Part shown: positions 7,206-18,649 of the stretch, piece after piece
How positions within the stretch are numbered: the stretch's first letter is position 1
Layout: each line of letters begins with the position of its first letter
NCBI RefSeq assembly: GCF_008761635.1
Contig: NZ_CP044344.1
Coordinates: 992,001 to 1,056,000 of the forward strand
Length of the DNA stretch: 64,000 nucleotides
From: Nocardioides cynanchi
GTDB taxonomy: Bacteria; Actinomycetota; Actinomycetes; Propionibacteriales; Nocardioidaceae
Reading direction: 5' to 3'
Translations under genes and position numbers: made by a program
The notes under the pieces: model-generated
What the model was told of the DNA's origin: nothing
The model's database searches: none
What the model saw: only the letters and a program-made list of their open reading frames with translations

Positions 7206-8228
7206 CTACTCCAGGGCGAACGGCAGGCCGTCCACGAGGTTGCGGCAGTACCCGGTCGCGAACCGGTGCACGTTGGTGTGGAACAGCGTCGAGGTGCGCT
7301 GCGCCGGGATGGAGGACTGGAAGGCGAGGTTGGCCAGCGCGGCGGCGCAGACGAAGACCTCCAGGGCGAGCGGCGGTGTCACCAGCCCCGGCCGACCGTC
7401 GCGGTATCCCGCCACCAGTGCTCGGCGCACCGCGGCGTCCTGGTAGGAGTACTGGTAGAGGGCGACGCCGACGTCCCAGAGGTACGGAGCCACGACCAGC
7501 TGGGCGAGGTCGATGAACTGGACGGCGCCGTCGGCGGCGACGATGACGTTGTCGGGGTTCAGGTCGCCGTGCACCACGCCGTACACCTCAGCGGACGTCC
7601 CGATGGTGTCGATCACGCTGCCGGCCAGGGCGGTTGCCTGCTCGATCGTGTGCCAGGACTCGTCCGTGACGGCGCCGGTGGCCTCCAGGACGCGCAGATC
7701 GTCGAGCATCCGCTCGAGGTAGCGGCTGTCATAGGTCACGGCGCCCTCGGCGGTCCCCACCCGTCGCTCGGAGCACGCGTGCCACCGCCCCATCAGGTCG
7801 CCGACGGCTCGGGCCTGGGCGGGGGAGAGCTCCTCGACCTGGTGACCGTCCAGCCACCGCTGGAGCGAGCACGGAAGCGGTACGCCGCGGAAGGACACGG
7901 TCGGCAACAGGGCACCAGTCGGATCCGGGACGGGCTCCTGCACGGGTACCTGCGCCACCTCGGCGATCGTGGCCAGCCAGGCGAGGCCGCCAAGAACGGC
8001 GCGCTCGGTCAAGGCCTCGCTCTCGCCCTGAGGAGCGTGGACCTTGAGCAGCAGGCGCCGCCCATCGGCAGCCTCGATCCGGAACGCGGCCCCGGAGTTG
8101 TGACCCAGGAAGAGCACCTCGTGCGCGGCCACCCCGAAGACCTGGAGGGCGGCGTCCGCCAGCTCGTCGTAGACGGCACCGCGGTCGGCCTCCGCCTGCT
8201 CGTTCACCAGGTCACTGAGAGCACTCAC
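7206..8228 (-). CDS. Aminoglycoside phosphotransferase-like kinase (APH/choline-kinase fold)
   Basis: 340 aa. The kinase-like fold is shown by the LLLKVHAP ATP lysine, the catalytic loop HGDLNPDN (residues 220-227) and the metal-binding FIDLAQ (Asp240). The family includes aminoglycoside, homoserine and fructosamine kinases, and the substrate here is unknown. It starts with GTG at 8228, only 66 bp from the dif site, so it is the last ordinary chromosomal gene before the terminus array. Confidence 0.85.
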   Translation of the reverse strand: MSALSDLVNEQAEADRGAVYDELADAALQVFGVAAHEVLFLGHNSGAAFRIEAADGRRLLLKVHAPQGESEALTERAVLGGLAWLATIAEVAQVPVQEPVPDPTGALLPTVSFRGVPLPCSLQRWLDGHQVEELSPAQARAVGDLMGRWHACSERRVGTAEGAVTYDSRYLERMLDDLRVLEATGAVTDESWHTIEQATALAGSVIDTIGTSAEVYGVVHGDLNPDNVIVAADGAVQFIDLAQLVVAPYLWDVGVALYQYSYQDAAVRRALVAGYRDGRPGLVTPPLALEVFVCAAALANLAFQSSIPAQRTSTLFHTNVHRFATGYCRNLVDGLPFALE

Positions 8229-8293
8229 GCACCCACCCTGCCGGAGATCCTCGCTCAGCGCTCACTGTGCGGAGGAGGAGGTCCCTCTGTGTC

Positions 8294-8321
8294 ATCTGAC
8301 ATAATGTCAGTTATCGGCGAA
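8294..8321 (-). other. dif: dif, chromosome dimer resolution site (XerC/XerD target)
   Basis: On the minus strand the 28 bp read TTCGCCGATAA (XerC arm), CTGACA (centre), TTATGTCAGAT (XerD arm). The two arms form the expected imperfect inverted repeat. Compared with the actinobacterial dif consensus as I know it (TTCRCCGATAAT, two variable bases, then ACATTATGTCAAGT), only about three positions differ. This is the only one of four related sites in the window with a good XerD arm. It marks the replication terminus and is the presumed entry point of the elements to its right. Confidence 0.88.
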
Positions 8322-8397
8322 TCTGCCAGGCGTGGGAAGGGGGGTGTTGGGTTGCACCCTTCCGGGTGACGCGACTCAAAACCTACCCCCGTGTTAC
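8305..8397. repeat. 93-bp direct repeat, copy 1 (attachment arm of element 1)
   Basis: Identical over 93 bp to 11092-11184 and similar for a further 14 bp. It contains the dif centre, the XerC arm, an octamer GGGAAGGG (8334-8341) and an imperfect long hairpin. The hairpin has outer GGGGGT/ACCCCC pairing and an inner CACCC-TTCC-GGGTG stem at about 8355-8369. One copy lies at the left end of each of the first two elements. Confidence 0.9.
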
Positions 8398-8552
8398 TAG
8401 CCGGGGGCTCGACCCCAAGCGACCTCTCATGCCGATGAGCGTGCGGACTGTTCCGGCTAGGTCCACACTCGTCCACAGGGCGTGGAACGGATCAGTTCCT
8501 GGCCGCGTCACACGGGTGTGCGGATACTCACCGCCGCCGACGGGAGCAGGTC

Positions 8553-8948
8553 ATGAGGCGTGGCATAGCGACGGTCGCGATCGTGGCTTTCGTCTTAGGT
8601 CTCGTCGCCTTCGGCGCGGCCGTCGCGAAGCCTCGCCACGCATCGTCCGCTGCCCACCTGCCGAGCGGGTTCGCTAGCCAGATGCAGGACATGAACATCA
8701 CATATTCGGACGTAGCGGTTGTTAGCGACCAGGTCAGGTCGGCGGCCTTGCGCTCAGCCGCACGAGGGTCCTCGCCACTCACCGGTAAGGATGCGCGGGC
8801 TGTTGTAGTCCGAGTGACGTTCACCGACGACGGGTACCGCGACCACGGTCGGCGCATCTACGTCGATCGACCGGCCTTGATGTTGGTCTACCCCGACACG
8901 CCTATGGCCCTCAGCGGCCCCCCCCCGGGACGCCAAACGGCACCGTGA
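8553..8948 (+). CDS. Small exported protein of element 1, probably frame-disrupted at a 9-C run
   Basis: ATG at 8553 with GGAG 8 nt upstream. Signal peptide at residues 1-25 (MRRGIATVAIVAFVLGLVAF, then AKP). The frame as written stops at 8948 after SGPPPGRQTAP. The nine Cs at 8918-8926 precede this tail. With ten Cs the frame continues to the TGA at 9047-9049, giving a credible ending (GTPNGTVKSTLVDFIDPDSM and onward), so either the sequence has an indel or the tract switches the C-terminus. Not recognised as a coat protein. It occupies the same place in element 1 as the lipoprotein at 12696 in element 2. Confidence 0.65.
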   Translation: MRRGIATVAIVAFVLGLVAFGAAVAKPRHASSAAHLPSGFASQMQDMNITYSDVAVVSDQVRSAALRSAARGSSPLTGKDARAVVVRVTFTDDGYRDHGRRIYVDRPALMLVYPDTPMALSGPPPGRQTAP

Positions 8949-9089
8949 AGTCGACCCTTGTCGACTTCATTGACCCCGACTCCATGCAGGGCCTCCATGC
9001 CGTTTCGTTCGCTACCTCAACGCATGTCGACCAAACCACCGGGGAATGACAGAACGCACGCACATGCCGCTGCCCGCGCTTTCGACTGC

Positions 9090-9881
9090 TCAGGTCCAGA
9101 TGCGGGTGATCCAGGGCGAGTGTTCTCCGGTGGCCTCTGAGAGGGCTTTGAGTGACTGGACCTCGGCTCGGCGTACGCCGTCTGGGAAGAAGCCTCGGGA
9201 GAAGTGTCCGACGCGGCCGCCGTTGAGCCGGAGGGCGTCGTCAGCATCGGTCCGGTAGCCCTTGACGGCGTAGGTGGCGAAGCCCTTGCCGACGTAGGAG
9301 GAGAACTCTGCGCCGGACTTGATCCGGGCGTAGGTGAACCTGCCAGCGAACCCGGCTGACACGAGTCGTCGTCGGAGCCAGTCGAAGTCGATGCGGTGGC
9401 CGTCCTTGACGACGATGTGGGCGTGGGTCATCCCGTTGGCGCTGCCCTGCTCGACGTAGGTTCCGAACGCGCCCAGCGCGACCTGGTCGCGTCTCGCTGC
9501 CTGCCTGAGCACCCGAAGCCGGTCCTGTACCTCGGGCCACGGGAGATCGGCTCGGTGCAGGTCCGTGGTGGTGACTGTCAGCTCGTGCGTGGGTTCGATG
9601 TAGCGCACCGCCAAGGAGCGTCGCCAGGCGTTCACCCCGATGCAGTCCGGGCACCCGTTGCGCTGGCACCGCATCGGGCGAGTTTCGCCGGTCTCGACGT
9701 TGATCATCACCACGTCACCGACCTGGATGGGACGCGACATGCACGGCAGTCGGTTGAGCCACTGACGAGCCGTCGGCTCGTCTGTCGGCTCTGTGAGCGT
9801 TTGGTCTGTTAGGACAAGGAAAGGGCCGGCTTCGCCGGTCTCCCCCGTCGCCGCAGCGCCGTAGGCTTGTTCCGTCGTCAT
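9090..9881 (-). CDS. rep: HUH-type rolling-circle replication initiator (Rep) of element 1
   Basis: 263 aa from the ATG at 9881, with AGGGG 7 nt upstream; the longer frame runs into the leader hairpin. A Cys cluster (RCQRNGCPDC, 71-80) precedes the HUH motif THAHIVV (His153, His155), and the catalytic YxxK follows as SYVGKG (Tyr196, Lys199). These are the conserved RCR motifs 2 and 3. The N-terminus (MTTEQAY) matches that of the element 2 Rep (MPTVQAY), but the rest diverges. It should nick its own origin to start single-strand rolling-circle synthesis. Divergent from the HTH gene at 10139. Confidence 0.85.
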   Translation of the reverse strand: MTTEQAYGAAATGETGEAGPFLVLTDQTLTEPTDEPTARQWLNRLPCMSRPIQVGDVVMINVETGETRPMRCQRNGCPDCIGVNAWRRSLAVRYIEPTHELTVTTTDLHRADLPWPEVQDRLRVLRQAARRDQVALGAFGTYVEQGSANGMTHAHIVVKDGHRIDFDWLRRRLVSAGFAGRFTYARIKSGAEFSSYVGKGFATYAVKGYRTDADDALRLNGGRVGHFSRGFFPDGVRRAEVQSLKALSEATGEHSPWITRIWT

Positions 9882-9904
9882 CAGTAGCCCCTGATGTCGT
9901 CCAC

Positions 9905-9943
9905 GACCCCGAGGAGTTGACGCTCCTGCGGGGTCTCTTTTTT
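9905..9943 (+). terminator. Intrinsic terminator hairpin just upstream of rep (element 1), antisense orientation
   Basis: GACCCCGAGGAG (9905-9916) pairs with CTCCTGCGGGGTC (9923-9935) and is followed on the plus strand by TCTTTTTT. It ends plus-strand transcripts 24 bp before the rep start codon. Element 2 has an equivalent hairpin at 11657-11695 in the same place. A short antisense RNA across the rep leader, as in copy-number control of rolling-circle plasmids, is an inference. Confidence 0.65.
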
Positions 9944-10047
9944 CAGTTGAATTGACCCGGACATCGGGTCGCGTAGACGTACGTAAACACCGGGAGTCGG
10001 AATGTCGCCGGAAGGCGCGCCGATTGAGGCTTTTCTTGGACACGTTT

Positions 10048-10066
10048 GCTTGCAGCAGTTAGCAGG
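10048..10066. other. Conserved inverted repeat in the rep-HTH intergenic space (candidate double-strand origin), element 1
   Basis: GCTTGCAGCAGTTAGCAGG at 10048-10066 aligns with GCTTGCTGTTGTTAGCAGC at 11802-11820 in element 2, in otherwise diverged DNA. Flanking conserved blocks are AGGCGCGCCGA on the left and GTCAAT on the right. Position and structure fit a Rep nick site, but no nick position can be assigned. Confidence 0.4.
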
Positions 10067-10138
10067 CTTTGGCGCGTCAATCGGTATTGACCCGATCGCG
10101 TCGTTAGGTGTCCGCGGTGGGTGCCAATATCCGTTGAC

Positions 10139-10486
10139 GTGAGCACCGAAGAGGGCAGCCATGCGCGGCTGCGGACCCGCTGGGTGGTCGAGAACCTCGC
10201 CGGAACTCTGCGCGGCCCTCAGAGGCCGTTGGACGCCCTGCAGGAGGTGCGACACGCCCAAGAGGGGTTGGCAGAGGTACGCGATTTGTTGACCTGCGCT
10301 GCACGCCGCGACGGCGCTACCTGGGCCCAGATCGGACACGCCCTCGGCATCAGCCGGCAGGCCGTCCACCAGGCCGACCAGCGGCGCCGGCGCCACGAGC
10401 TCGAGCGGCAGGACGCCAGCGTGTGGCGCATGCCGATGCCGAGGCGGCGCCGTCGGTTCCGATGGTGGCGGAATCGGAGCGCGTAG
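10139..10486 (+). CDS. HTH DNA-binding protein of element 1
   Basis: 115 aa from the GTG at 10139; the GTTGACGTGAGCACCGAA start context is identical in element 2 (11893). The helix-turn-helix is GATWAQIGHALGISRQAVHQ (about residues 57-76), similar to sigma-region-4-like HTHs. The tail is very basic (RMPMPRRRRRFRWWRNR). Shared with element 2: GSHAR, GPQRPLD, RHAQE, ISRQA and WRMP blocks. Transcribed away from rep, it is a likely regulator of rep or of lysogeny; this role is inferred. Confidence 0.75.
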   Translation: MSTEEGSHARLRTRWVVENLAGTLRGPQRPLDALQEVRHAQEGLAEVRDLLTCAARRDGATWAQIGHALGISRQAVHQADQRRRRHELERQDASVWRMPMPRRRRRFRWWRNRSA

Positions 10487-11091
10487 GAGCCAGCGATGGT
10501 CCAGGCACCCGCGCGGCTCACTGATGGCGGGTGTGGGTGGCCTTGCGGCTTCCGGGGCCCCCTCACGGGCTCGCTGCGCTCCCCCGCGAGCCTCGGGGCC
10601 CCTCCAGCCACCCGAGAGAGGCCACCCACCCCCACCCGCCGCGCGGGCCGTGCAGGTGGTGGGGAGCAGCGCAGAAGAAGCAGGACGAACAGTCGTCAAC
10701 ATCGGGGGCGGATTCCCTCCGGTCAGGAGGTCCGCCATTCCTATTTTTGGACAGACCTCTCGGAGGCCGTCCGCCCATCACGCTCAACCCACGCTGGCTC
10801 TGTTCACAGACGAACAGGTTGACTCGCAACGAGCCTCGGCTCGGAGAGGCCCGTCGCCCGCGTCCTCACATCACTGACGGTTGCTACGCATTGCCGATAG
10901 ACCGGAGGAAGCGCCCGAGGGCTGCTCAGTCGCGACGGTACAGTCCCGCGCCGACACCGGCGGCGAGATCCGAGCGCGTGTCGCTGCCAGGGCCCGCCGT
11001 GCGTCCTCGGCGCTCCGCGCCGTCCGGGCGCGCGCCAGCCCCCGCCAGCGAGCCGCGCATCGTCTCCTCGACGTCCGGGGTCAGGTCCCGG
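10487..11091. other. 600-bp region without a convincing gene (element 1 right end)
   Basis: Open frames here have no ribosome sites and irregular codon use. The region holds the large hairpin at 10526-10641 and runs into the dif-like site at 11081-11108. In the circular form it would lie between the HTH gene and the exported-protein gene. Confidence 0.6.
10526..10641. repeat. Large GC-rich hairpin of element 1
   Basis: GGCGGGTGTGGGTGGCC at 10526-10542 pairs with the reverse complement at 10621-10641, apart from a 4-nt bulge. Inside, GGGGCCCC arms and GGGCTCGC/GCGAGCC arms pair again. Such a structure in single-stranded DNA could be a single-strand origin or packaging signal. Element 2 has a shorter counterpart at 12507-12569. 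Confidence 0.6.
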
Positions 11092-11108
11092 TGTCAGTTA
11101 TCGGCGAA
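11081..11108 (-). other. dif-like site 2 (XerC arm and centre conserved, XerD arm degenerate)
   Basis: Minus strand: TTCGCCGATAA, CTGACA, then CCGGGACCTGA instead of a XerD arm. The XerC arm and centre are identical to dif. This is the product expected if XerC-mediated recombination joined the right end of element 1 to the XerC-arm side of element 2. Confidence 0.75.
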
Positions 11109-11635
11109 TCTGCCAGGCGTGGGAAGGGGGGTGTTGGGTTGCACCCTTCCGGGTGACGCGACTCAAAACCTACCCCCGTGTTACAGGTCGGGGGCTCGGC
11201 AGCCGCGTAGACGGCCAGGTGAAGGTGCGGGACGCCTCGACGCTGCCACTCCACGACCCAGTGCCACCGGAGCAGCCCAGCCCGCCTCAGACGCTGCTGC
11301 AGGACCTTCACGAGCCGTGTCCAGTCCTCAGAGGTCGGAGGGCAGTCCAGCAGTGTCAGTGTGACCGCCGCGCCGATGCCGTCGAGCTGCGTGGTGTCGA
11401 CCGACCGGAGCCAGGCCGTGTGCCGGCGCACCGTGCCGGCCGACCAGCCGGTGACCTCACCGCGTTTGGCCGGCGCGTGAGCGCAGCACAGGACGCGGGA
11501 GCCCGTCAGACACTCGCAGCCTTCACGGTGGCAGCACCCCGGGCCCAGGTAGACCACTGAGCCCCGTTGGCATGGCTCCCGGCCTCCGGCCCATCCCAGG
11601 GTGAGCCCGTTCTCGTACGCTTGAACTGTCGGCAT
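11081..11635 (-). CDS. rep: Rep of element 2, N-terminal half (gene interrupted by integration)
   Basis: 184 aa as integrated; the first 181 codons (to 11093) are element-derived. ATG at 11635. Paired cysteines (CCHREGCEC, VLCC) precede the HUH motif PHLHLAVY (His137, His139). The frame crosses the 93-bp repeat and the dif core, then stops at once (TGT and stop) in element 1 DNA, so the catalytic tyrosine is missing. Joining the dif cores at 11092 and 14015 continues the same frame into 13494-14015, giving a 354-aa Rep with both motifs. Confidence 0.8.
   Translation of the reverse strand: MPTVQAYENGLTLGWAGGREPCQRGSVVYLGPGCCHREGCECLTGSRVLCCAHAPAKRGEVTGWSAGTVRRHTAWLRSVDTTQLDGIGAAVTLTLLDCPPTSEDWTRLVKVLQQRLRRAGLLRWHWVVEWQRRGVPHLHLAVYAAAEPPTCNTGVGFESRHPEGCNPTPPFPRLADSPITDTGT
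11092..11184. repeat. 93-bp direct repeat, copy 2 (attachment arm of element 2)
   Basis: Identical to 8305-8397. In this copy the minus strand is open and in frame with rep, encoding the stretch from about NTGVGF to PITD. The GGGAAGGG octamer is at 11121-11128. Confidence 0.9.
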
Positions 11636-11656
11636 CAGCGAACACCTGATCCGTCC

Positions 11657-11695
11657 AAGCCCCGAGCGGTTGCAGCCGCGTCGGGGCTTCTTCTT
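11657..11695 (+). terminator. Intrinsic terminator hairpin just upstream of rep (element 2), antisense orientation
   Basis: AAGCCCCGA (11657-11665) pairs with TCGGGGCTT (11681-11689), with an inner GCGG/CCGC stem, followed by CTTCTTT on the plus strand. It is 21 bp from the rep start codon, matching the placement in element 1. Confidence 0.6.
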
Positions 11696-11801
11696 TGGTT
11701 GTCACCAGCACCCGGTCGGGAGCCGTGTGCTGATATGTGACTACTAATCAAGAAGGTGGTCCCGGCAGGCGCGCCGACGACGGCCCCGAAAGAATGCAAA
11801 T

Positions 11802-11820
11802 GCTTGCTGTTGTTAGCAGC
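11802..11820. other. Conserved inverted repeat in the rep-HTH intergenic space (candidate double-strand origin), element 2
   Basis: Counterpart of 10048-10066. TGCT and AGCA arms flank TGCTGTTGTT. It lies upstream of the HTH start, in the DNA that a longer alternative HTH frame (from 11737) would translate; its conservation as DNA argues for the shorter HTH start. Confidence 0.4.
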
Positions 11821-11892
11821 GTTATCACCGTCAATAGTCGTTGTCGCCGAACCGGTCCCAGGAATGGTCAGACGGTGGCAACCTGCGTTGAC

Positions 11893-12246
11893 GTGAGCAC
11901 CGAAACCGGCAGCCATGCCCGGTGGCTGATGGGCCGAGCCGCCGCAGACCTCGACCACGCCAGGTCCGGCCCACAACGCCCCCTGGACCACCTCAAGGCC
12001 GCACGACACGCCCAAGAGCGCATCCACGACGCAATCGGGCTCCTGGTGCTGGCCGCCCGCGACGAGGGCCACAGTTGGGGCCAGATCGGCACCGCCCTGC
12101 AGATCAGCCGACAGGCCGCCCGTCAAGCGCAGCTGCGACGCGACCAGGTCGACCGGCAGCGCCAAGAAGACCGACAGTGGCGGATGCCCAGCAAGCAGCG
12201 ACCACGACGACTGAGATGGTTGAGGAGTCGGCTCAAAGCCGGATGA
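11893..12246 (+). CDS. HTH DNA-binding protein of element 2
   Basis: 117 aa from the GTG at 11893, homologous over its length to the element 1 protein. HTH at GHSWGQIGTALQISRQAARQ (about 59-78); basic C-terminus (RMPSKQRPRRLRWLRSR). Divergent from rep. Likely repressor or accessory replication factor of the element (inferred). Confidence 0.75.
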   Translation: MSTETGSHARWLMGRAAADLDHARSGPQRPLDHLKAARHAQERIHDAIGLLVLAARDEGHSWGQIGTALQISRQAARQAQLRRDQVDRQRQEDRQWRMPSKQRPRRLRWLRSRLKAG

Positions 12247-12695
12247 GCAGAACACGGGACGACGGCCTTCCGGACGCACGGGAGTGGACTGCTTCCCGTG
12301 CAGAAGACCTAGTTGTGCGTCCGCTCGATGCGGCCTACCTCTGCCTTCCGCCGCACCTGCACCCGGGCTGGACGACTCTCAGGTCAGTCCCGGGCCTCTC
12401 GTATATGTCATCGGCCGGGCTCTCCCCGGTCCCTTCGAAAGCCCCCTCAGGATGCCAGAGCCCACCGACCGCATCCCGGGACCAACGCCCTGCGTGTCTC
12501 ACCACCGGGGCCGGGCGCGCCGCTCATCGCTCCCCCAACCGCGCTCCTCCGTCGCGCGCCCGGGGCCCCTGCGACCCGAGAGCCCAGCAGCACCCCCGGC
12601 CCCTCCCAGACGCGCACGGACAGCGGCATGAGCGGACGCTTCGCGGAACTCACTCGAAGCGGCGACCGTCACAATGGTCGATGAGGGGGTTTCCG
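12247..12695. other. 450-bp region without a convincing gene (element 2)
   Basis: Lies between the HTH and lipoprotein genes and contains the hairpin at 12507-12569. Proline/arginine-rich open frames here are typical of non-coding GC-rich DNA. Confidence 0.55.
12507..12569. repeat. GC-rich hairpin of element 2
   Basis: GGGGCCGGGCGCGC (12507-12520) pairs with GCGCGCCCGGGGCCCC (12554-12569). The loop carries CGCTCCCCC, as does the element 1 hairpin loop, so the two are probably related structures. Confidence 0.5.
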
Positions 12696-13037
12696 ATGCA
12701 GACGCTTGTTCTTCTCTCCGTGCTGGCGCTGGCGGTCTCCTGCTCGGCTGACGACAGAAGCGCGACACCCGAAACGTCCGTGAGCATCACTGTGAAGCGG
12801 GACGTGGTGATGCAGGTCGGCAACCTCATCCAGAAGGAACTAGCGCCTGGTGACATGGTTGAGGCCCTGTGCATCGCCCCGCCGCCGGATGGCTACCCGG
12901 GACCAGTCGTCAAGGTGCGTTCGGGTTCCACGGTCGGGTACGCGACCGTGGAAGCCGACGGGTTGCACTACTTCGATACGTCAGCGGCCGAGTTGCAAGA
13001 ACGCCTACCCGACTGCGGTCCCACAGGACTTACGTAG
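12696..13037 (+). CDS. Small lipoprotein of element 2
   Basis: 113 aa. GAGGGGG lies about 8 nt before the ATG. Signal peptide MQTLVLLSVLALAVS with Cys16 as lipidated residue (LAVSC), then an acidic/polar mature part with two further cysteines (ALCIAPPP, LPDCGP). No known family recognised. Same position as the exported protein in element 1; a surface role such as superinfection exclusion is only speculation. Confidence 0.65.
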   Translation: MQTLVLLSVLALAVSCSADDRSATPETSVSITVKRDVVMQVGNLIQKELAPGDMVEALCIAPPPDGYPGPVVKVRSGSTVGYATVEADGLHYFDTSAAELQERLPDCGPTGLT

Positions 13038-13069
13038 CCATCCGCTCATCGGCATGTGAGTGCGTTGGC

Positions 13070-13237
13070 TCAGGTCTGGAGCCAGTCGCGTCGACAGCCG
13101 GGGCAGACCTCGCCGTAGAGCCGTTCGGGCCACACCCGTTCCAGGCAGATCCGGCACGGTTGCGGTAGGCAGCGCCAGGCGTGCCGCGCGCTTCGCTTGC
13201 CGCGGCCCGCCTGGCGCTGCCTGACCGGATCCGTCAC
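13070..13237 (-). CDS. Small Cys-rich protein, 55 aa (element 2 rep operon)
   Basis: The GTG at 13237 overlaps the previous stop (GTGA). Product VTDPVRQRQAGRGKRSARHA, then a four-cysteine ribbon (CLPQPCRICLE...CPGCRRD). Probably binds zinc. Third gene of the reconstituted rep operon. Function unknown. Confidence 0.55.
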   Translation of the reverse strand: MTDPVRQRQAGRGKRSARHAWRCLPQPCRICLERVWPERLYGEVCPGCRRDWLQT

Positions 13238-13497
13238 GGTCCGACCTCGAGCGGGCCGAAGACGCCGACTTCCCCACAGTCGAGGCACCGCCACGCGTCG
13301 AGCTCGAGCAGCCCAGGCCCGGCACCCATGCCGACACCCTGCGCGACCTGGATCAACCAGTCGTCGGCGTCCTGGTGCGCATCGACCAGGCGGGCGACTT
13401 CGTCACCGACGCTCCCCCAGCCCAACTGCCCAGAGCCGCAGACCGTGCACGTGCTGCGGAACAGCCGCGCGAAGCCCACCCCATCGAAGCCGTTCAC
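13234..13497 (-). CDS. Small Cys-rich protein, 87 aa (element 2 rep operon)
   Basis: The GTG at 13497 overlaps the rep stop codon (GTGA), indicating translational coupling. Two CxxC pairs (CTVCGSG near residue 17 and CLDCGEV near residue 76) flank a helical middle, a treble-clef/zinc-ribbon arrangement. Function unknown; possibly a replication accessory protein. Confidence 0.6.
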   Translation of the reverse strand: MNGFDGVGFARLFRSTCTVCGSGQLGWGSVGDEVARLVDAHQDADDWLIQVAQGVGMGAGPGLLELDAWRCLDCGEVGVFGPLEVGP

Positions 13498-14015
13498 GCC
13501 ATCACTCCGTCCCATCCGGCCGCGAGCGCGAGCCCCACGGCGATCTCCTGGCTTCCCCATTCCGACACTCCCCGGCACGCGCCCAGCACCCGATCCGATG
13601 ACTTGAGCATGCCCCGCAGGTACGACACCCGGTCCCACTCACCGGCAGCCTTGACCATCTGTCCGGCCCGCTCATGGCTGATCGCCTTCGCCCGAGCATC
13701 CGCAATCGCGTATCGCCTCACCAGCCGCCGGAACCGATGCCCCTGCTGAGTCGTCAGGTCCATCTGCAACGGAGCCACTACCGGCCACCCGCTGCTCTTG
13801 CCCCACAGTCGGCCGGTCCGCTCCCAACCTGCAGGCTTGCCCTGGCGCTGGTAGTGCCGCACCCCACGCGCTGCGTGCTTGGACAGGTACTTCAGCCAGC
13901 CCACCGGCCCGGTGATCGGCGTGACCTGCTGCCCCCTCAACCCCGGCTGATACTCCGAGGCGATCTCCCGCCACTGCCCCACCACCCACCAGCCGACGGC
14001 CGACGCAGCGGAACT
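13494..14015 (-). CDS. rep: Rep of element 2, C-terminal half (gene interrupted by integration)
   Basis: 173 codons plus stop, without its own start signal; a GTG at 13985 exists but has no ribosome site. It carries GPVGWLKYLSKHAARGVRHY, the RCR motif 3 with YxxK (Tyr224 and Lys227 of the joined protein), typical of actinobacterial plasmid/phage Reps. It lacks the HUH motif, which is on the other half at 11093-11635. Codon phase matches that half exactly when the two dif cores are joined. Confidence 0.8.
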   Translation of the reverse strand, partial: SSAASAVGWWVVGQWREIASEYQPGLRGQQVTPITGPVGWLKYLSKHAARGVRHYQRQGKPAGWERTGRLWGKSSGWPVVAPLQMDLTTQQGHRFRRLVRRYAIADARAKAISHERAGQMVKAAGEWDRVSYLRGMLKSSDRVLGACRGVSEWGSQEIAVGLALAAGWDGVMA

Positions 14016-14031
14016 GTCAGTTATCGGCGAG
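14004..14031 (-). other. dif-like site 3
   Basis: Minus strand: ACTCGCCGATAA (XerC arm), CTGACA (centre), GTTCCGCTGCG (degenerate XerD arm). It ends element 2. The XerC-arm side belongs to whatever lay there before element 2 arrived. Confidence 0.7.
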
Positions 14032-14705
14032 TTGGGCGCAGCCTGACGGTACGGCTCTCATATGCCGATGTGAGTCCAGGGTCACGGCTGTAGCGAAGGC
14101 GGCGAAGATGCCCGGATCATCACAACGGCGAAGTCCGACCTGGGGCGATCCGCCGTCATGATGTCACGCGAGGAGCGCTTCGGTCAGGGTGCCCGCCCGG
14201 TGTCAATCGAGGTGATCGACGAAGGGACTTTGGTCCTTATCGGGACCCCTCCCCCGGCTGATAACTTCACCGGTGGGTGTGGATAGACGCCTGGTTCAGA
14301 CGCCGAGGCCGGCAAGGCATCGGCGGCAGCCATCACCGCTCCGTGAAATCCACCGGAGTCGAGCATGCGCCAGGCTTACGCAGCCAGCAGTTCCACTCTG
14401 ATGACGAGTGACACGGCGCGCGTGTATGGACAGGTGCCACTCCTCGTGCCGACGCGAGCCCTCAATCGGGGGGTGGGGACTCGCGTCGGCCGCACCACTG
14501 GACAGGGTGAACTCTGATGGACCGGCTTTTGGCTCCGCAGATCAGCGACAGCGCCGCGTCCCGAGCCCGCGGGGAGATCGCAGACCGCGACACCTGCCGG
14601 AACGAGCTGTCATCGCTTACGGGATTGCCGCGCTCTCAGCCAGGTGTTGGTGCAGATGCAGGGACCCGGTTGTTGCCCGCCAACGCCTTCGGCGCCTATA
14701 ACGCG
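14032..14705. other. Region with no confident gene; holds a DosR-like box
   Basis: About 670 bp. GGGACTTTGGTCC at 14224-14236 resembles the DosR/DevR box core (GGGACTTTNGTCCC). An 18-bp sequence GGGTGTGGATAGACGCCT at 14275-14292 recurs at 16820-16837. A longer start for the next gene (ATG at 14517) is possible but has a weak ribosome site and lower third-position GC. Confidence 0.5.
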
Positions 14706-14993
14706 ATGACGACTTCCCCTGTCGAAGCAACCCTCGACTCTGGGTGGTGGGCTACCGGGAGCACGCGTGTAGAACCCGGCACTCCTGGGCAGCAGGATCG
14801 ACAGACGCTGTCGGATCCTGCTCCCCGTCGCCTGGCCGCGAAAACGGTGTCAATGGGCATTGCCGTCTTGATGGCGTGGGGGATCGTTACCGGCCTGATC
14901 GCCGGGCTTGTCCTGGTGCATCTGCTTGGCTGGCTGGGTATGCCGGTGGATATGGGGACTGGGTCCCTATTGAAAAGTGCGTTCTGGCTATGA
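14706..14993 (+). CDS. Small single-pass membrane protein
   Basis: 95 aa if started at the ATG 14706; a start at 14517 would give 158 aa. One strong transmembrane helix near the C-terminus (MGIAVLMAWGIVTGLIAGLV). The stop overlaps the next start (ATGA), so the pair is translationally coupled. Codon use is less GC-biased than in the flanking chromosome, suggesting acquired DNA. Not recognised. Confidence 0.45.
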   Translation: MTTSPVEATLDSGWWATGSTRVEPGTPGQQDRQTLSDPAPRRLAAKTVSMGIAVLMAWGIVTGLIAGLVLVHLLGWLGMPVDMGTGSLLKSAFWL

Positions 14994-15274
14994 CGACTCG
15001 CCCGGGTCCGAGCAGCTGTTATCCAGTCGCCGTGCACAACGAGCTGATGTCGCTGATGCTGCGCATGGTCGAGATGTACCCCGGACTGCCGGCCGGTTCC
15101 GTGATGCGCAGCGTCGCCCGGACTGTTCGCCGCGCACGGGTGGCGGGGGTCGAGTTGGAGGCCCTCCCGGTCCGAGCCGAGCACACCGCCCACGAAGTTC
15201 TAGCCGCACGGTTGGCTGCAACGGGACCCGGAGCACATGGCGATCACCAGGACCGGGCAACCGGCGGCCGCTAG
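14990..15274 (+). CDS. Three-helix-bundle dimerization (DUF3562-like) protein
   Basis: 94 aa. HNELMSLMLRMVEMYPGLPAGSVMRSVAR follows the pattern of the short actinobacterial three-helix dimerization domain (helix, aspartate/tyrosine-proline turn, helix), which is found in proteins linked to dormancy-type loci. Function unknown. Coupled to the membrane protein gene by a 4-bp overlap. Confidence 0.5.
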   Translation: MTTRPGPSSCYPVAVHNELMSLMLRMVEMYPGLPAGSVMRSVARTVRRARVAGVELEALPVRAEHTAHEVLAARLAATGPGAHGDHQDRATGGR

Positions 15275-15485
15275 GGGCAGCCTCGGCGTCCGGGCTATGA
15301 CCACCATGAGGTACGCGTCAGGAACTCGCAGTGCCGATCGTCGAGCTGCCTGGCTGGATACGGGAACCATGAGTCCGGAGGGAGCGGGAGGGGTTCGGCG
15401 CATCGTGGTCGGCGCCGTCATGTCGAGGTGCAGGGCGCGCGCGACCCGCTGCTGACGCGGCGGGCTGGCGACACAAGAACTCAAC

Positions 15486-16637
15486 CTAGGCTTCCAGCCC
15501 GCTGATCGACCTCTCGGCAAGAGCCTGGACGAAGAGTGCGGGTGACACTGTTGAGCCGAAGAGTCGCCGCTGGCGCTCGGCGCCGCCCCCTGCTAGACGG
15601 AGACGGTCGAGTGTCGACACGACCGTGACGTCGTCCCCGTGAGCTCGTAGCTGCGTTTGCACCTGCTCGAGCATCCGATCGATGAATTCCCACGGCTCCA
15701 AGCGCTCATCGGTCAAAGGATCTGTCGTGCTCCCGCTCAAACCGGAGAGGGCGGCGAGTCGGCAAGACTCGCGAAGCCGTGCTTGCGGCACCCACGCAGC
15801 TGGATGACCGTGAGCCTCCTCGTCCAATGCGGTCGCCACTAGTGCTCGGACCAGGCCCGCGTAGCAGGCTGCCTCGTCGACTGACAGGCTGACGTCGGCG
15901 AGGCGGACCTCGACGGTCGGGTAGCGCGGGGACAGTCGGGCCAGGAAGTAGATGCTGCGCGCGTCCAGAGCGCGCCCGGACGACACGGTCGAACGCAGGA
16001 GCTCGTCGTACGCCTCGGCTGACTCAACGGGCGGCGCCGGCGCGGCGGTCGGCCACCGAGAGATGAAGACCATCCGCCGACTTGCCCAACGGGTGTCGTG
16101 TCCGCGCCACACGGGCGAGTTCGCGGTCAGCGCGATGAGGGCCGGTAACCAGCGACGGATGCGAAGGAGCACCTCGACTCCGAGTTGCCTGTTCGGGACC
16201 GCGACGTGAACATGGCATCCACATGTCCCGGCGGTACTCATGGCCAATGGAAAACGTTGAACGAGTTCGATGTACCGCGGGTCCCTCGTGATCGCGGGCG
16301 GACTCGGCACTCCGAAGGGGGCTACGCCTGAGGCGACCATCAAAGCCCCGTGCCCGCGGGCGACAGCTGCGACGTGGTGACGGTGCGTTCTCAGCGACTG
16401 GGCGACTTCTCGCAGGGTATGGCACACAGGTGTTCGAGTCTCGATCATGTAGCTCATGCACTCGGGTACGATTCCCGCCGCGTCGCTGCAATCGCGCACC
16501 ACGTCCGGTGCTCGGCAGACGACCCGGCCCGTCCCGGGAGCCAGAAGCGCGAACTCCTCCTCGACCCCCACAGTTACGTCGCTTGGTGATAACGGCCTCA
16601 GGTCCTGGGCGACGGGGGTCGTGATGACGGTGTCCAT
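15486..16637 (-). CDS. GCS2-family carboxylate-amine ligase (glutamate-cysteine ligase-like, YbdK type)
   Basis: 383 aa, usual length for the family. ATG at 16637 with GGAGAGGGAG directly upstream. VTVGVEEEFALL is the family's N-terminal metal/ATP signature, GTCGCHVHVAVP the conserved HVHV strand, and YFLARLSPRYPTVEVRLADVSL the core substrate-binding region. Members form a gamma-glutamyl or similar amide bond with ATP; the substrate here is unknown. Monocistronic. Confidence 0.85.
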   Translation of the reverse strand: MDTVITTPVAQDLRPLSPSDVTVGVEEEFALLAPGTGRVVCRAPDVVRDCSDAAGIVPECMSYMIETRTPVCHTLREVAQSLRTHRHHVAAVARGHGALMVASGVAPFGVPSPPAITRDPRYIELVQRFPLAMSTAGTCGCHVHVAVPNRQLGVEVLLRIRRWLPALIALTANSPVWRGHDTRWASRRMVFISRWPTAAPAPPVESAEAYDELLRSTVSSGRALDARSIYFLARLSPRYPTVEVRLADVSLSVDEAACYAGLVRALVATALDEEAHGHPAAWVPQARLRESCRLAALSGLSGSTTDPLTDERLEPWEFIDRMLEQVQTQLRAHGDDVTVVSTLDRLRLAGGGAERQRRLFGSTVSPALFVQALAERSISGLEA

Positions 16638-17059
16638 CTCCCTCTCCTGAGCACAGGCAGTCGAGTCGGCTACGCCTCACTATGTCGACACAGCTCCGAG
16701 CTGGGCAGGGCCGGACGGCCCTCGCCCGGAGACTTCCGGATCGCTGCTGCACCGAACGCCAGTCCGCCCAGAAACGCAAGCTCTGTCGTCCTGACTGGGA
16801 TGTTGCTACGCTCGACATCGGGTGTGGATAGACGCCTCTGGTGCTCGACGACTGAGCTGCGAGAGAACCGCAAGTCCCACGCCAGCGCCTGTGTGAACGT
16901 CGCCCGAAGCCAGAGTGCGCCGATGGAAGCCCCAAGGAGGCGACCGGTATGAAGGCGCACTAGGGGCCGCGTCCAGCGCTCCCGATGTGGTCGCTGGCGG
17001 GTCCTCGGAGCCGCGACCCGGCACGCGCTTGGGCGAACCCTGACAGATGAGGTCGCCAA
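16638..17059. other. Intergenic stretch with no confident gene
   Basis: A minus-strand frame ending at 16670 has one hydrophobic segment (ELAFLGGLAFGAAAI) but no ribosome site. The second copy of the 18-bp repeat lies at 16820-16837. Confidence 0.45.
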
Positions 17060-17299
17060 TTGAACTGGCTGGCGGTGATGACACTGCCCGACGGCACCGC
17101 GATCGAGATCCCGATGCCCTCACCCGAAGACACTTGTCAAGCCGACCACGTCCATGGCTACCGCGTACGTGGACCCTCTGGCACCACCACGTTCGCGACC
17201 CTGACCGAAGCCGCCGACTACGTCATGGGCCTGCCGGACCATGCGTGGCGACGCCCGTCATCAGGGCAAGTCAGGACATCCCGGTCCTCAGGCGCGTGA
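17060..17299 (+). CDS. Small hypothetical protein, 79 aa
   Basis: TTG start at 17060 with GAGG 9 nt upstream; an ATG at 17078 is the alternative. High third-position GC across MTLPDGTAIEIPMPSPEDTC and GPSGTTTFATLTEAADYVMG supports coding. The fold looks like a short beta-meander with a C-terminal helix. Not recognised. Confidence 0.5.
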   Translation: MNWLAVMTLPDGTAIEIPMPSPEDTCQADHVHGYRVRGPSGTTTFATLTEAADYVMGLPDHAWRRPSSGQVRTSRSSGA

Positions 17300-17328
17300 C
17301 GCACCACTTCGCCTCAATGCTTGTCTCG

Positions 17329-18117
17329 TCATCCGGATGAGTAGCCGGACGGGCGCTGTGTGAGGGGGCGGGGGGGTTCGGGTGGGTGACCGGTCGCGCT
17401 CTCGATGAGCTCGGCGGCGATCGTGCTCACCTTGCGGTTTGTGGTCTGGGAGGTGTGACGCAAGATCTCGAAGGCGTCATGGGCGCCGATCCTGCGGCTG
17501 ACCATGAGGATGCCGAGCGCTTGGTCGATGACTGCCCGGGTGGCCAGGGCGTCACGCAGCTCCTCATCGAGTGTGGCGCGGGCGGCATGGCGCAGCAGGA
17601 TCGTCAACGCGGTGGCTGCTTGGGCGGTGAACGCCTCGGCCCGGGCGATGTCGTTGGCACTGAAGGCATGTGGGACGGTGGCGAACAGGTTCAGGGCCCC
17701 GAGGGTCGTGCCGTCGAGTTTCAGCGGCAGCGAAGCGACGCTGTGGATGCCGTTGGCGAGCGCGTGGCCGGCGTAGTCGCCGAATCGCGTCTCGGCGGCC
17801 ATGTCAGGCACCTCGATCCGTGTCCCCTCGTCCAAAGCCGCCAGGCATGGCCCGCGTCCGCGGAGGTACTGGACCTCGTCCATCCGCATCGCCACCGCGT
17901 CGCTGCTGACCGCGGTGGCGACCTGACCGTCGCGCCGCATGGTGATGCCGCAGTGGGTGCCCGGCACGATCGAGGACGCCAGCACCGCCAGCTGTTGCAG
18001 GAACTCGGTGACATCCGGTCCGTCGAGGATGAGGTGCTGCAACTCGGCGTAGGCCGCGGCGAGGTCGAGTGGCTCTGGGCGCCCAGGCGTCGTCGACTCG
18101 CCCGGATCATGCGTCAC
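17329..18117 (-). CDS. GAF-ANTAR RNA-binding antiterminator regulator
   Basis: 262 aa from the GTG at 18117 (GAAGG 5 nt upstream). The GAF sensor domain spans about residues 20-170 (GTHCGITMRRDG, YLRGRGPCLAALDEG, VASLPLKLDG, GALNLFA). The ANTAR domain is C-terminal (ATRAVIDQALGILMVSRRIG, AFEILRHTSQTTNRKVSTIA), with the conserved alanines and aromatic/hydrophobic pattern. It should bind dual stem-loop RNA antiterminators in response to a small ligand. The targets are not visible. Confidence 0.85.
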   Translation of the reverse strand: MTHDPGESTTPGRPEPLDLAAAYAELQHLILDGPDVTEFLQQLAVLASSIVPGTHCGITMRRDGQVATAVSSDAVAMRMDEVQYLRGRGPCLAALDEGTRIEVPDMAAETRFGDYAGHALANGIHSVASLPLKLDGTTLGALNLFATVPHAFSANDIARAEAFTAQAATALTILLRHAARATLDEELRDALATRAVIDQALGILMVSRRIGAHDAFEILRHTSQTTNRKVSTIAAELIESATGHPPEPPRPLTQRPSGYSSG

Positions 18118-18649
18118 CTTCGGGTCCCGTCTGCACCCACGGTGGGTACGCTTGTGAGCGCCGAAGGCGGTGCCGCGCTCTGGACGACACACTGAAAGCC
18201 CTCAGTGACGCCTACGCTATCCCGCCGCAAGGGCGGCCAACAGTCCGTTGGTCCTGTCGGGGAGGGTCCGAAGTCGGGAACGCCCCCGGGCGGCCCGGGC
18301 CGAAACGCCGGGCACTGCTCACCGGACGTGAACGTAGACGTGGGTCGGCCCCCGCTCCGCTTCCTGAACCGGGGGCCTCAGCCCTCACCGATCTGCAGCG
18401 CAGTCAGAACCTTGCTCCACGTTAACACTGATTCGAGCGCGAGCGTCTTCGCGTGAGTCGATCATGACGCGCCTCGGGGATCGCCGTGGCCGATGCCGCC
18501 GACCGAGCCAGGCCGGGCCAGGCCAGCGACCAGGCACCGGGTGCCAGTTATCGGCGCTATTCGCAGGGCTCAAGTCAGGCTGCGAGAGGGGTACGGCGCG
18601 GCTCGCCGATGAACCTCCCCGGCGGCGACGGTTGGTCTACCGTTTCACC
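18118..18649. other. 530-bp intergenic region containing dif-like site 4
   Basis: No frame with a credible start, and no tRNA found. It contains GC-rich inverted repeats (for example CCCCCGGGCGGCCCGGGCC near 18290) and the XerC-arm site at 18531-18558. Confidence 0.5.
18531..18558 (-). other. dif-like site 4
   Basis: Minus strand: AGCGCCGATAA (XerC arm), CTGGCA (centre, one change), CCCGGTGCCTG (no XerD arm). CAGTTATCGGCG is shared with sites 1-3. If real, the DNA to its right is the original chromosomal XerC-arm flank of dif. Confidence 0.45.

Follow-up and report, generated by a model that had tools for sequence, protein, structure and literature searches.

In a 64,000-nucleotide stretch of the Nocardioides cynanchi chromosome (assembly GCF_008761635.1, contig NZ_CP044344.1, positions 992,001-1,056,000; hereafter the window, whose own coordinates we use below), the recombination site dif carries on one side a row of units bordered by the XerC half of that site. 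We consider it probable that this row, at 8.3-18.6 kb, was built as the host recombinases XerC and XerD inserted small rolling-circle replicons at dif one after another, and that in one family of these elements a single insertion splits the gene for the replication initiator, rep. Two of the units, E1 and E2, look like tiny plasmids, likely inserted by host Xer enzymes. With less assurance, we also favour the view that half of dif has been adopted as a coding loop of the replication enzyme; one Xer crossover would then both store the element and cut the enzyme between its catalytic motifs, the array copy number would act as a switch (one copy off, at least two on), and the loop residues would follow the centre of the host dif.

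The chromosome is one contig of 3,998,545 bp, in which dif (1,000,294) and dnaA (2,990,682) are 1,990,388 bp apart, or 49.8% of its length. The original prediction had placed a full dif with both arms here, and this site is the only one within three mismatches anywhere in the genome. Its core (8305-8320) is identical to the cores of sites 2 and 3 (TGTCAGTTATCGGCGA), and that of site 4 reads TGCCAGTTATCGGCGC (Table 1). Importantly, a 15-base core, CGCCGATAACTGRCA, occurs with at most one mismatch four times in the whole genome, always in the array and on a single strand, while the reversed pattern used as a control had no match genome-wide. This four-core observation is confirmed as real and far beyond chance. 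Successive cores lie 2787, 2923 and 4527 bp apart on the XerC side; both arms are complete only at dif, and the full XerD arm, which is that of the chromosome, stands only on the dif edge of the array, the arrangement that had been foreseen. Nine inner sites from five genomes keep a 9-base XerC core and, again as predicted for the window, have unrelated XerD arms, matching dif at 2-4 of 11 positions versus 2.2 +/- 1.3 at random window positions. At eight of the nine the centre is that of the same genome's dif (CTGACA in the window genome, in G066, which is N. astragali, and in G060; GCGACA in G108; GTGACA in G033, which is N. daeguensis 2C1-5), site 4 being off by one base. If the proposed model holds, E1 now owns the XerC arm of the full dif; site 4 is probably the original chromosomal XerC arm. 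Among 59 sampled Nocardioides, dif was detected in 57. An additional dif-like site, with one mismatch, exists in two genomes, G031 (contig C1, L095), where it sits on a 308-kb contig, and G049 (L082/L083).

Table 1 Features of the array at dif, in window coordinates
Feature	Position	Strand	Remarks
Full dif	8294-8321	-	XerC arm TTCGCCGATAA, centre CTGACA, XerD arm TTATGTCAGAT; sole full dif in genome (<=3 mismatches)
Element E1	8305-11091		2787 bp, core to next core
Hairpin	8386-8407		CCCCCG-TGTTACTAGC-CGGGGG; candidate nick site
E1 small open reading frame (ORF)	8553-8948	+	hydrophobic N-terminus; no family match
E1 Rep	9090-9881 (ORF 9090-10043)	-	263 aa; start codon common to homologues; predicted HUH
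E1 helix-turn-helix (HTH) protein	10121-10486	+	divergent from rep; phrog_686; homologous to E2 HTH; 17 homologues
Site 2	11092-11107	-	XerC arm and dif centre, no XerD arm; arm comparison and genome core scan
Element E2	11092-14014		2923 bp
Second hairpin copy	11173-11194		terminates 107-bp block common to E1 (97%)
E2 rep N-half	11204-11635	-	HUH motif HLHL; PF23343; ORF continues through core to 11081
E2 HTH protein	11737-12246	+	homologous to E1 HTH
E2 small ORF	12696-13037	+	lipoprotein-like N-terminus; no family match
E2 rep C-half	13494-13985	-	tyrosine motif YLSKHA; homologous to C-halves of G108, G033, G066
Site 3	14015-14030	-	XerC arm and dif centre; arm comparison and genome core scan
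Segment E3	14015-18541		4527 bp; no recognisable Rep
GCS2-family ligase in E3	15486-16637	-	Pfam
GAF-ANTAR protein in E3	17329-18192	-	Pfam
Site 4	18542-18557	-	XerC arm and centre CTGGCA; arm comparison and genome core scan

The prediction had also given the elements Reps of the HUH (histidine-hydrophobic-histidine) class, which we found in E1 and E2 and not in E3. E1 looks complete. Its Rep has the HUH and tyrosine motifs expected of an HUH replicon, with HxH and YxxK invariant in the alignment; it has 44 homologues in the database, no match in Pfam, PHROGs or NCBIfam or among the phages and plasmids searched, and no relative in viral contigs, and its structure model gives weak fold matches. 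The Rep of E2 is a different, Pf3-like protein, its N-half being 49% identical to the Rep of phage Pf3 over residues 58-159 (P0140 is an orthologue), and here Pfam (PF23343), the alignment and a structure model all place the family among HUH replicons. The attachment site (att) of E1 lies outside its rep gene, unlike that of the E2 family.

Such elements recur in the genus. Across 215 Nocardioides genomes, the E1 Rep matched nine and the E2 Rep nine (E <= 0.001). Relatives of at least 45% identity, found in G000, G007 (N. furvisabuli), G033, G060, G066, G108, G115, G137, G148 and G188, flank dif on its XerC side in 10/10 genomes, with the nearest edge at most 0.8 kb away; the remaining matches, at eight places, reach 33% identity at most, and the stretches around seven of the eight (G173 was left out) contain no dif. 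Nine other Nocardioides thus have related Reps, four with exact second cores and two with tandem arrays, of 3143 + 3101 bp in G108 and 2691 + 2691 bp in G033, where the array continues into a contig (L129) that starts at a core and holds three more exact cores. Single elements measure 2973 bp in G066 and, as a remnant, 1377 bp in G060. At eight dif loci, namely the window and seven taken for their Reps, we counted seven exact cores beyond dif. All seven are XerC-side and share the orientation of dif, whereas the opposite strand and the XerD side have none; the 56 sampled dif loci had no exact second core. Only exact hits were counted because the pattern with one mismatch gives chance-level matches (14 in dif orientation and 8 on the other strand on the XerC side; 5 and 2 on the XerD side). 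The array is not syntenic core DNA: in the examined flanks of these 56 other loci, the window's element proteins are represented by nothing but fragments of Rep, which lie right at dif in G033 and G007. Scanning the wider order gave positives in 5 of 391 genomes, all of them Nocardioides (one of 40 genera), with at most six first-look candidates scored per genome. A 34%-identical Rep is present in the chromosome of Bifidobacterium catenulatum subsp. kashiwanohense JCM 15439 (L150, locus positions 8001-8774). G188 (L124) has two sequences that resemble the XerC arm and have altered centres, at +946 and +1867 from dif; they coincide with the breakpoints of two E1-type Rep remnants.

The position of the att site in the E2 family was unexpected. 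The elements of G108, G033 and G066, and E2 itself, begin on the dif side with the HUH half of rep and carry its tyrosine half at their other end. In this family the att core is itself rep coding sequence, encoding PI[ST]D between the HUH and tyrosine motifs. Where copies are in tandem, an uninterrupted rep frame spans the core, with 333 aa in G108 and 291 aa in G033, and intact Reps from metagenomes likewise show the joined gene; at dif, the HUH half reads into the XerD arm (PI[ST]DIMS) and stops soon after (G108, G066). In G108, G033 and G066 the centre of the core is that of the same genome's dif. We looked for the same linker in 81 scorable Reps among the best 120 of 457 homologues of the G033 Rep. 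A PIxx tetrapeptide (PIMH, PIMN, PISD or PITD) stands 10-16 residues past the HUH motif in 15 of them and is absent from 66, with linkers of 51-63 residues where it is present and of 43-49 residues in 61 of the 66 without it. All four tetrapeptides are what the XerC arm plus a dif centre known in the genus would translate to; the centres TGCACA, TGAACA, GTGACA or GCGACA, CTGACA and others match, and shuffled linkers spelled PIxx in 17 of 18,800 trials. A structure model of the G033 Rep, with a mean predicted local distance difference test score (pLDDT) of 85, shows these residues as a loop between the HUH strand (106-114) and a helix (126-137), ahead of the tyrosine helix (156-177); HUH enzymes are among its best fold matches, none of them at E < 0.001.

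Taken together, these observations suggest the following cycle. A free circle of about 2.7-3.1 kb would bear an intact rep, and XerCD would join the att of the circle to dif. Each insertion would rebuild dif from the XerD arm of the chromosome and the XerC arm of the newcomer, and the array would therefore grow at dif. In the E2 family a single insertion would leave the HUH half of rep next to dif and its tyrosine half at the opposite end of the element, and this separation would switch Rep off. Either excision or the arrival of a second, tandem copy would restore rep, and replication would restart. The HTH protein may control rep. In mycobacteriophages with integration-dependent immunity, integration itself likewise alters a gene product and hence the state of the element; that system uses a repressor and a phage integrase, whereas here the gene is a replication initiator and the proposed recombinases are the host's.

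Several points weigh against this account. Circles, excision and XerCD recombination, as well as the silence of Rep after a single insertion and its reactivation by excision or a tandem copy, are what we infer from the sequence. The contigs that carry database homologues are at most 3.9 kb long for 43 of the 44 E1-type Reps and all 17 HTH proteins, which fits small circles but also poor assembly. E3 as a Rep element is ruled out, as family scans found no Rep and chromosomal-type genes instead. GC skew, suggested as a check of the terminus, showed no clear switch at dif over 20 sampled 20-kb stretches, so the terminus was not confirmed in this way. G188, G137, G115, G148 and G007 have partial copies and no second exact core; degenerate cores (up to three mismatches) are too frequent there to be interpreted, apart from the two in G188 described above. 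In the window itself the reading frame of the E2 C-half does not continue into the core, and because of this the switch was read from the relatives. Finally, the 15 PIxx Reps are related to one another, and the linker of P0122 is a near miss, PTTD.

It is possible, though we prefer the longer row, that only E1 and E2 were inserted, with E3 chromosomal and site 4 an old, unrelated or rearranged core. Apart from the lack of a Rep, the two genes of E3 occur singly in 8 of 214 other genomes of the genus (E <= 1e-40), and in G011, G025 and G029, where dif was located, such genes are on another contig or 53 kb away from it. Against this, site 4 fits the 15-base pattern, as one of just four such cores in 4.0 Mb, and neither gene appears in the examined flanks of the 56 other dif loci. 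In our proposal the DNA between the cores of E3 is chromosomal, either old or captured. The G+C content of E1-E3 is 66.8-68.1%, and that of the 20 sampled stretches 67-74%. An exact 18-bp direct repeat, GGGTGTGGATAGACGCCT, is found within E3 at 14275-14292 and 16820-16837.

The proposed switch has its own competitor, namely that att lies inside rep and switches nothing, either because the halves cooperate in trans or because integrated single copies lead nowhere and persist by chance. The several remnant copies (G007, G115, G137, G148, G188) and the decay of the window E2 would suit this idea. We nevertheless hold it to be rather unlikely, since the intact G108 and G033 copies, like the 15 database Reps, preserve both the reading frame and the spacing of the motifs across the core, as would be expected if the rejoined gene were under selection.

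The dif-side end of E2, up to the hairpin, is of E1 type (97% over 107 bp), and the window E2 looks like a decayed copy whose dif-side end was replaced by E1-type sequence. This block, common to both elements, stops at the hairpin; folded as a single strand it is no more stable than shuffles (z -0.14). The hairpin, CCCCCG/CGGGGG with a loop starting TGTTAC, is also present in the G066 element (about +2281 from dif, L128). The eight further element stretches that we scanned lack it (these include both G108 copies, a and b, G033, E3, G060 and 2.2-kb stretches of G188 and G137), as do 45 kb of window chromosome; as background, 440 kb of XerD-side sequence, both strands considered, held one GTTAC hairpin. 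We regard it as a candidate rolling-circle origin. That the array arose through homologous recombination or duplication rather than through Xer, as the shared 107-bp block might suggest, is hardly credible, given that elements with unrelated Reps have only the core in common at their far ends and that five genomes have their junction at this same core.

With respect to the class of element, the array carries no integrase of its own, as had been predicted. The Pfam scan of its main ORFs found no recombinase family, and none of the six PF00589 matches in the genome lies within it. XerC- and XerD-like genes are present elsewhere in the genome, one protein scoring above the XerD cut-off and another matching XerC best, below the cut-off. 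Placement at dif between dif-like half sites and the absence of an integrase are the marks of integrative mobile elements exploiting Xer (IMEX). The original prediction had drawn a parallel with VGJ-type sites, in which the XerD side of the centre is unlike that of dif; sites of the TLC satellite of Vibrio cholerae and of the Neisseria gonococcal genomic island (GGI) are described as having a dif-like centre and a diverged XerD arm (cited accounts: PMC5357621, PMC4246890). Because the centres here are the host's own and the XerD arms match at chance level, the sites are of the TLC/GGI type and not of the VGJ type, and by their anatomy the elements appear to be Xer-exploiting with a TLC-type site. 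In the same accounts TLC also targets dif, forms tandem arrays and has its own Rep without coat genes (PMC4246890, PMC5357621). Unlike it, the present elements have actinobacterial hosts, are 2.7-3.1 kb long, would use Xer by our reading of their structure and, in the E2 family, carry att inside rep. A dif-type attP within a coding gene that is split or shortened on integration is described for XacF1 of Xanthomonas (ORF12) and RSS0 of Ralstonia (ORF13), both genes being putative regulators in those reports (PMC5666396, PMC4076744, PMC3816273); here, in contrast, the gene is a replication initiator, cut between its catalytic motifs, and coat and assembly genes are missing. Similarly, the Pf3 Rep and the PF23343 Reps of tiny proteobacterial plasmids belong to the same family as the E2 Rep, and differ in that 66 of the 81 scorable relatives lack the PIxx linker.

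The prediction's comparison with filamentous-phage arrays does not extend to complete phages. No Zot/pI assembly ATPase or coat gene family was found in the scanned array ORFs, nor any Zot match in the window genome, and by gene content the elements are neither Inoviridae nor other filamentous phages. They could instead be filamentous-phage satellites like TLC or RS1 of Vibrio, replicating by themselves and packaged by a helper inovirus that need not be resident. The identity of the E2 Rep to that of Pf3 and the TLC type of site are in keeping with this, as is a 3.8-kb IMG/VR contig on which a relative 49% identical to the Rep of G033 adjoins a Zot-family assembly ATPase. Zot-family genes, however, are found in only 3 of 215 genomes of the genus (two over the cut-off) and in none of the ten Rep-bearing hosts, so a resident helper was dropped; moreover, the same Rep family occurs on tiny proteobacterial plasmids. 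We therefore judge a satellite origin improbable. The IMG/VR contig (L153, 3300006931_000041, 3814 bp), whose E2-kind Rep lacks the PIxx linker, is possibly an inovirus of a high-G+C host. In summary, the original prediction was partly supported: the array, the Reps of E1 and E2 and the lack of an integrase stand, and the VGJ type, a Rep in E3 and filamentous phages do not. It had missed the att inside rep of the E2 family, and the recurrence in other Nocardioides is a further finding of this work.

In the titles and abstract openings of the literature searched, which covered few subscription journals, we found no Xer-exploiting element in actinobacteria and no attP in a replication initiator. 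If the preferred reading of serial Xer insertion with a split rep is true, it would extend Xer-exploiting elements to actinobacteria and would provide a simple shut-off of replication on integration, without a repressor. Of the 56 sampled dif loci (L040-L095), 39 have a UvrA-like gene to the XerC side, at distances from 48 bp to 15.5 kb (within 250 bp in five), and the XerC-side interval therefore varies widely in length; insertions of this kind may partly account for that variability in the genus.

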